NCBI GenBank assembly: GCA_023512105.1
Contig: JAIMAE010000012.1
Coordinates: 1 to 36,990 of the forward strand
Direction: 5' to 3'
Source: Bacillota bacterium
GTDB lineage: Bacteria; Bacillota; Sulfobacillia; Sulfobacillales; Sulfobacillaceae
Length of the DNA: 36,990 nt
The position numbers and the translations under genes were made by a program. The notes under the pieces are model-generated. The model saw only the letters and a list, made by a program, of their open reading frames with translations, was not told the DNA's origin and made no database searches. Below, one piece after another: positions 2,559 through 32,004 of the stretch (positions within the stretch are counted from its first letter, which is position 1; every line of letters begins with the position of its first letter).

Positions 2559-3335
2559 GTGAACTCCTGGTACCCAGGACATATGCTGCAGGCCCGCGAT
2601 GCCTTGCGCAGCGTGGCGCGCTACCTGACCGCGGTGGTGGAAGTGGTCGATGCCCGAGCGCCCCAGCTGACTCGACATGCGCCGCTGGCGCGTTGGGTGG
2701 GCAACACGCCGGTGGTCTTGGTCCTCAACAAAGCGGATCTGGCTGACCCCGCGACCACCGAGGCGTGGCTGCAGTGGTACCGGCAGCAGCCCTCGCTGCT
2801 GGCCGCGGTGGCGCTCAGCGCTCAGACTCCGGGCGCGCGCCAGCAGTTAAAGGCGATCCTGGTGGCCCGCCTCACCCCCCCGTTTCGCCTCTGCGTGGTG
2901 GGGATGCCCAATGTTGGCAAGTCCACCCTGCTCAATCGGATGGTGGGCGGACGGCGTGCGGCGGTGGGAGCCAAGCCGGGAATCACCCGTGGCCCGCAGT
3001 GGATTCGCCCCGAGCCGGGCTGGGAGTGGCTCGACCTCCCGGGAGTGGTGCTCCCGCGCAAGTCGCGGGATTGGCGGCTCAAGGCGCTGGGGATCTCTGC
3101 CTTGGGCGGGGACGAGGCGCTGTCGGTGGCGCAGGCGCTGCTGGAGCAATGGCCTGAACTCTTGGGCGACGTTGGGGGGGAGGATCCGGAGGTGGCGCTT
3201 ACCACCTGGGGCCGGGGCCGGGGGTTTTTGGGTCCCGGCGGGACGGTCGATTTGCAACGCACGGCTGTCAGTTTTTTGACCGCCTTTCAACGGGGCGCCC
3301 TGGGGCGCTTTAGCTTGGAGCGGCCTCCGGTCTGA
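2559..3335 (+). CDS. rbgA: Ribosome biogenesis GTPase RbgA (YlqF)
   Basis: RbgA is a GTPase needed for late 50S assembly in Bacillus. The 258-residue product has the circularly permuted GTPase order: G4 NKAD (57-60), a G5-like SAQ, then the P-loop GMPNVGKS (115-122) and the G3 motif DLPG (159-162). It begins [11 protein letters not shown], matching the family N-terminus. The C-terminal domain is somewhat shorter than in Bacillus subtilis (282 residues). The start is GTG 2559 with a strong GGAGGAGGAGG at 2542-2552. rnhB follows with a single base between them. Confidence 0.95.
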
Positions 3336-31527: not shown

Positions 31528-31638
31528 AAGGGCCCCGCGTCCCGGGATGGTGGGGCCTCCCGCGGGCCGCCGTTGGGCGGGTGGCCTGCTCCGGGGGTAA
31601 GCCAATGGCGTCAATGGTTTGATAAGGAGGAAAAGACG

Positions 31639-32004
31639 ATGGCTTGGACGTTTTACCACAAGCATGGCTGAGGGGCCTGCGAGAGCGTGAAAGCGTGGCT
31701 TTCACAACACGAGGTGGCCTACATCGACCGCGATATCCTCACCGAGCCTCCTTCCGTAGAACAGATTTTGCAGTTAGGGCGCCTTTTGCCGCAAGGTGTG
31801 GCGGGATTGGCGCATCCCCGGAAATACCTCGATGGGCAGCCGGCCAACCAAGTGATGGCCCAGTGGGCCCCCGAAGTAGCCGCCGCGCGGCTTCACCAGG
31901 AACCCGACCTCTTCTTGAAGCCGGTGTTGACCGACGGTCAACAGCTGGTCGTCGGACCTGACATGACCCGGTTGGAGGCGTTGCTTCCGGCGCTGAAGGC
32001 CTGA
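31639..32004 (+). CDS. ArsC/Spx-like thioredoxin-fold protein with in-frame TGA (probable selenoprotein)
   Basis: Reading from ATG 31639, with AAGGAGG at 31624-31630 and an 8-base spacer, gives MAWTFYHKHG, a TGA at codon 11 (31669-31671), then GACESVKAWLSQHEVAYIDRD and onward to a stop at 32002-32004. The product is 121 residues if the TGA is read. The TGA falls exactly where ArsC/Spx-type proteins have the first cysteine of CxxC, giving U11-G-A-C14. The rest fits the family: a helix after the motif, a beta strand (VAYIDRDI), a helical insertion, then LFLKPVLTDGQQLVVGPD with the expected cis-proline. A SECIS-like hairpin follows the TGA. TGA is an ordinary stop in many genes here, so local recoding is needed. 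Likely role: thiol/selenol redox enzyme or arsenate reductase-like protein. Alternative: a nonsense mutation or sequencing error. Confidence 0.85.
31669..31720 (+). promoter_or_regulatory. SECIS-like element directly after the in-frame TGA
   Basis: GTGAAAGC (31687-31694) and GCTTTCAC (31698-31705) form a perfect 8-bp stem with loop GTG. The loop begins 23 bases after the TGA and its first base is G, as in bacterial SECIS elements bound by SelB. A lower helix can form between GGGCC (31673-31677) and GGCCT (31716-31720). The hairpin lies within the coding sequence, as expected for bacteria. Confidence 0.75.

Follow-up and report, generated by a model that had tools for sequence, protein, structure and literature searches.

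The window analysed here, the whole stretch of 36,990 nucleotides, contains a reading frame that starts with an ATG at 31639, is interrupted after 10 codons by a TGA (31669-31671) and then stays open up to a second TGA at 32002-32004. A hairpin follows the first TGA. The locus thus raises the question whether this hairpin is a bacterial SECIS (bSECIS) element that allows the first UGA to be read as selenocysteine (Sec), and if so, what kind of protein is made. The features considered below, all on the + strand, are:

31624..31630, +, Shine-Dalgarno sequence AAGGAGG (taaggaggaaaagacgATG), with the ATG 8 nt further on
31639..32004, +, predicted selenoprotein gene, 121 residues when the TGA is read through in translation
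31669..31671, +, in-frame UGA, predicted selenocysteine codon (U11), aligned with Cys TGC or TGA in relatives
31673..31720, +, possible lower helix (31673-31677/31716-31720), which folds here but is non-conserved and probably incidental
31687..31705, +, predicted upper stem-loop of the bSECIS, 8 bp GUGAAAGC/GCUUUCAC, with GUG apical loop 31695-31697
32002..32004, +, true stop, likewise UGA; comparable hairpin absent, best stem 5 bp

The read-through product is MAWTFYHKHG-U-GACESVKAWLSQHEVAYIDRDILTEPPSVEQ...VGPDMTRLEALLPALKA (121 residues). In its N-terminal part, MAWTFYHKHG-U-GAC..., U11 and C14 form a UxxC motif.

A bSECIS-like hairpin downstream of the in-frame UGA

The original prediction described a perfect 8-bp stem with a GTG loop beginning 23 bases after the TGA. 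Direct reading of the sequence bears this out: the arms GTGAAAGC (31687-31694) and GCTTTCAC (31698-31705) form eight pairs, all of them Watson-Crick, and the UGA is separated from the loop by 23 nt (31672-31694). The published bSECIS model comprises an upper stem of 4-16 bp, a loop of 3-9 nt, a spacing of 16-37 nt and a minimum free energy of no more than -7.5 kcal/mol, with a G within the first two loop positions, usually as G[G/U]; the element lies immediately downstream of the UGA, inside the coding sequence (PMC13188914, PMC1088965). When the segment was checked against this model, all rules were satisfied (8 bp, 3-nt GUG loop, 23 nt, -11.7 kcal/mol for 31672-31711), including the usual-range spacing and the G at the first loop position that had been put forward as the main features of the element. 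There is no difference in kind from the bSECIS consensus; what marks this protein family is a minimal 3-nt GUG loop and a spacing fixed at 23 nt, family-wide in the class. As had also been claimed, the true stop lacks a comparable hairpin, the best stem in the allowed range after TGA 32002-32004 being 5 bp.

A lower helix was part of the same proposal. It can indeed form (five pairs, one of them G-U) and is present in centroid folds of the window sequence, but of the 69 Sec homologues just one, the window itself, has all its pairs, and for this reason the helix is probably incidental.

How often such a hairpin arises by chance was estimated in two ways. Under the same rules, an all-Watson-Crick 8-bp hairpin accompanies 3 of the 817 TGA triplets on both strands of the window (0.4%), and 37 of them (4.5%) meet the 8-bp rule with G-U pairs allowed. 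Among 20,000 synonymous recodings, which kept the same protein segment and took codon usage from the window genes, an all-Watson-Crick 8-bp stem appeared at the site in 1, while 246 formed 8 bp or more at some position in range, G-U allowed. The folding energy of the window hairpin is unexceptional (z -0.58); single-sequence folding was non-significant and was dropped as evidence. Taken singly, the sequence is suggestive of a SECIS but not conclusive, and because folding energy alone is unremarkable, comparison has to decide; it is the comparison that makes the SECIS firm.

Conservation and covariation of the stem in homologues

The unexceptional energy of the lone sequence would also suit a quite different reading, namely that the locus is a pseudogene, or that a TGC/TGT codon was misread in sequencing, and that the hairpin is a by-product of the conserved codons for Ala-Trp-Leu. 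Against it, the frame is preceded by a strong Shine-Dalgarno sequence and is otherwise open over 121 codons. The remaining evidence on this reading comes from homologues.

The own genome and relatives were searched with the protein, and a profile of eight homologues was then run against 154 genomes of the class. Matches were obtained in 79 of the 154, mostly carrying one TGA. Sorting the loci by their codon at the U position gave 69 distinct sequences with TGA and a further 20 with Cys; across the homologue alignment, the U11 codon is TGA in most class members. A TGA shared at the same site by most homologues of 79 genomes argues against a pseudogene or error, and a frameshift or sequencing error was ruled out on this ground. 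A related-locus search with the window protein as query returned no related loci; with a Sec relative as query it matched Sulfobacillus benefaciens and two unclassified Bacillota MAGs, and on these named relatives the genome is assigned to the class Sulfobacillia. No match was present in a plasmid search.

Absence of the stem from homologues with TGA had been named as the result that would speak against the original prediction. The outcome favors the prediction: at unchanged spacing, 37 of the 69 distinct TGA homologues have the complete stem of eight pairs, and 0 of the 20 Cys homologues do. Synonymous recoding is expected to yield a mean of 0.21 and a maximum of 2 full stems, compared to the 37 observed, a disparity that the by-product reading does not account for. 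For the TGA sequences, the share of stem cells that pair is 85% in the original register and 32-49% after a slide of 1-3 nt; for the Cys sequences it is 46%. The loop is G[G/T]N at all 76 TGA homologue loci.

Compensatory changes, the other check proposed for homologous genes, were sought in 31 distinct Sec sequences drawn from 48, with shifted AGTT-loop sequences and some near-duplicates omitted. Two-sided changes were found at 4 of the 8 pairs, in 29 cells. The covariation score was 0.366, compared to 0.166 +/- 0.019, and was reached in 0 of 500 shuffles, a test that kinship among the sequences can inflate, so that greater weight goes to the register-slide control and to the contrast between Sec and Cys homologues. 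Such covariation of the stem likewise stands against a pseudogene or error. In the window itself the second pair is U-A, compared to C-G in most sequences, and both codons are altered (GTG for GCG; TCA for TCG).

A covariance model, R1, was discarded as circular, the window sequence being among its input. Its replacement, R2, was built from 27 sequences, none from the own genome. In the window, R2 scored 42.8 bits (E 2.9e-8) at precisely 31669-31708; it gave 50.2 and 35.0 bits on two other Sec genes of the own genome and reached 19.2 bits at most on Cys homologue loci.

Part of the conservation is at the protein level, as GCG-TGG-CTN doubles as code for conserved Ala-Trp-Leu. The two innermost pairs are invariant in the 31-sequence set and, because their codons encode these residues, say nothing about conservation of the stem. 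That GCGTGGCT codes for a conserved peptide and also persists in some Cys glutaredoxins is a point in favor of the by-product reading. The alignments support a SECIS through the middle and outer pairs and through two clades. In one, Glu replaces Trp and the stem is retained with loop GGA. In the other, which lacks the Trp, the stem is shifted, GCCAAGC-AGTT-GCTTGGC, and the element is retained though the peptide changes. Taking these results together, we consider a pseudogene or error with a by-product hairpin very improbable.

Two minor observations concern the coding side of the element. Six loci (L091, L092, L100, L106, L107 and L125) have AKQLL/ARQLL instead of AxAWL, with the hairpin shifted by one position. 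The residues at +7 and +11 after U, opposed across the RNA stem, appear coupled (Lys with Ser, Arg with Ala/Gly/Ser); by inspection this is stronger in Sec proteins than in those with Cys, as though the protein sequence were constrained by the SECIS.

Selenocysteine machinery of the genome

A tRNA-Sec with UCA anticodon was found in the genome (73.5 bits, cut-off 47), with the 3' end G-CCA (G73). SelB is present above the family cut-off. SelD is present at 356 bits and is interrupted by one in-frame TGA; selD (contig C320, L034 about 3258-3291) is itself a selenoprotein gene, with the motif SKSG-U-GCK and an 8-bp GGA-capped hairpin. In Sulfobacillus, Sec is known to be used in formate dehydrogenase (PMC4378227) and in PrxU (PMC7409299).

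The 404 contigs of the own draft genome yielded no SelA, which is what a pseudogene or error might lead one to expect. SelA scores above cut-off in 34 of the 42 genomes searched, the own genome being one of the 42 and a same-genus genome one of the 34. All 6 relatives examined have hemB as the immediate upstream neighbor of selA. The sole hemB fragment of the own genome (about 55 residues) breaks off at the end of contig C16. Because a contig ends within the upstream neighbor of selA, the missing gene is best read as an assembly gap, and SelA is probably present.

The genome also carries a second tRNA of tRNA-Sec-like architecture (contig C290:8079-8170; L009 / L132:2080-2169 (-)), with a GCA (Cys) anticodon, U73, an encoded CCA and a long variable arm. 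Its score of 57 exceeds the Rfam gathering threshold for tRNA-Sec, 47. An ordinary tRNA-Cys(GCA) is present on contig C60. The C290 tRNA resembles the selC* tRNA-Cys described in PMC7609411, a type that in other bacteria occurs with a UCA anticodon (PMC7609411), so one may ask whether a suppressor tRNA of this kind reads the UGA as cysteine or another residue. Here, however, the selC*-like tRNA-Cys has the anticodon GCA, which decodes UGC/UGU and rules out suppression by it, and a UCA-anticodon tRNA-Sec with G73, SelB and SelD are all present. Suppression is therefore scarcely credible as an explanation.

We conclude that the window hairpin is almost certainly a bacterial SECIS and that UGA 31669-31671 is very probably read as Sec in a protein of the ArsC/Spx family. 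The observed basis is the conserved, covarying hairpin, the Sec/Cys exchange described below, tRNA-Sec, SelB and SelD. As we picture it, SelB with Sec-tRNA(Sec, UCA) would bind the GUG-capped stem and bring selenocysteine to the UGA that precedes the loop by 23 nt; at the UGA of the gene end, translation would stop as usual. The product would be a 121-residue ArsC/Spx-family protein with Sec in place of the first Cys of a CxxC redox pair, and it would probably serve as a selenol-thiol redox protein or sensor.

The protein encoded by the window gene

The window protein is an ArsC/Spx-family UxxC protein of thioredoxin fold, with Sec for the first Cys of CxxC. It matches Pfam Glutaredoxin PF00462 at 29.6 bits, above the cut-off of 22.9; ArsC matches weakly. 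The best NCBIfam match is Spx, at 42.9 bits and far under the cut-off of 123. The protein is likewise under cut-off for TIGR01617 (Spx/MgsR; 33.5 bits, cut-off 75.05), NF041106 (14.9, cut-off 85) and NF041212 UXX-star (24.2, cut-off 66), and is unlisted for TIGR00014 at E <= 1. Two Sec relatives, L018 and L028, pass TIGR01617 with 79.5 and 85.9 bits.

A search of solved structures returned Spx (1z3e/6ghb), at E 3e-12 with the single sequence as query and at 2e-28 with the family profile. An AlphaFold2 model of the window protein has a pLDDT of 96.6, and its best Foldseek match is Spx (TM 0.80 to 1z3e), followed by proteins of the ArsC family and arsenate reductases. Spx (1z3e, 6ghb, 3gfk, 7f75) is thus the best match in both sequence and fold; in contrast to Spx, the window protein, which is about a quarter identical to it, has Sec for the first Cys. 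In the alignment, U11 and C14 correspond to Cys10 and Cys13 of Spx, and R48, G53 and R61 to R47, G52 and R60. The chemistry is most likely that of a selenenylsulfide/selenol-thiol couple between U11 and C14, which might serve either a reductase or a regulator.

In Spx itself, residues R47 and G52 are important for contacting RNA polymerase. The alignment of R48 and G53 with these residues may hint at binding to the alpha C-terminal domain, and is suggestive only. The relation to Spx is an interesting but putative one. Sec relatives that pass the Spx/MgsR model raise the question whether there are transcription regulators with a selenocysteine redox switch. That the Sec proteins are Spx-like RNA-polymerase-binding regulators, with Sec replacing the sensing Cys10 and a Se-S switch tying transcription to selenium supply, is a tentative idea that we think rather unlikely to hold.

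Among known selenoproteins, NF041106 (UxxC) and the TIGR00014 Sec arsenate reductase (UxxS) share with the window protein the thioredoxin fold of the ArsC superfamily and an N-terminal redox Sec. UXX-star glutaredoxin-like selenoproteins (NF041212 and relatives) likewise carry Sec in a glutaredoxin-like N-terminal half; unlike them, the window protein has 121 residues with a C-terminal half of ArsC/Spx type. The recent prokaryotic selenoprotein list in PMC13188914 includes arsenate reductase (UxxS), the arsenate reductase-like NF041106 (UxxC), Grx and UXX-star, and a search of the paper turned up no mention of Spx. A search of the literature outside subscription journals found no paper naming a Spx selenoprotein. 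While bSECIS elements and Sec-containing ArsC/Grx-like proteins are already known, the window selenoprotein gene is new, because its product falls below the cut-offs of the listed selenoprotein models; it adds an ArsC/Spx-type UxxC selenoprotein out of reach of current NCBIfam models. When UGA recoding is disregarded, an annotation pipeline would split or omit the window gene, and, judging by the homologue set, dozens of genomes of the class would suffer the same mis-annotation.

Sec/Cys exchange and other Sec genes

G019, a genome from the same family, encodes a full-length relative (locus L017) that is 53% identical to the window protein, has TGC at the UGA position and lacks the full stem. 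A comparable exchange is seen for a glutaredoxin-like Sec gene of the own genome on contig C120, which has a Cys counterpart (L027) in a same-genus genome. This gene (L037:4678-4717 (-)) encodes a UGPC motif and has the same SECIS type. A further gene with this type of SECIS, on contig C8 (L036:3094-3133 (-)), encodes an ArsC/Spx-like selenoprotein with the motif UTTS.
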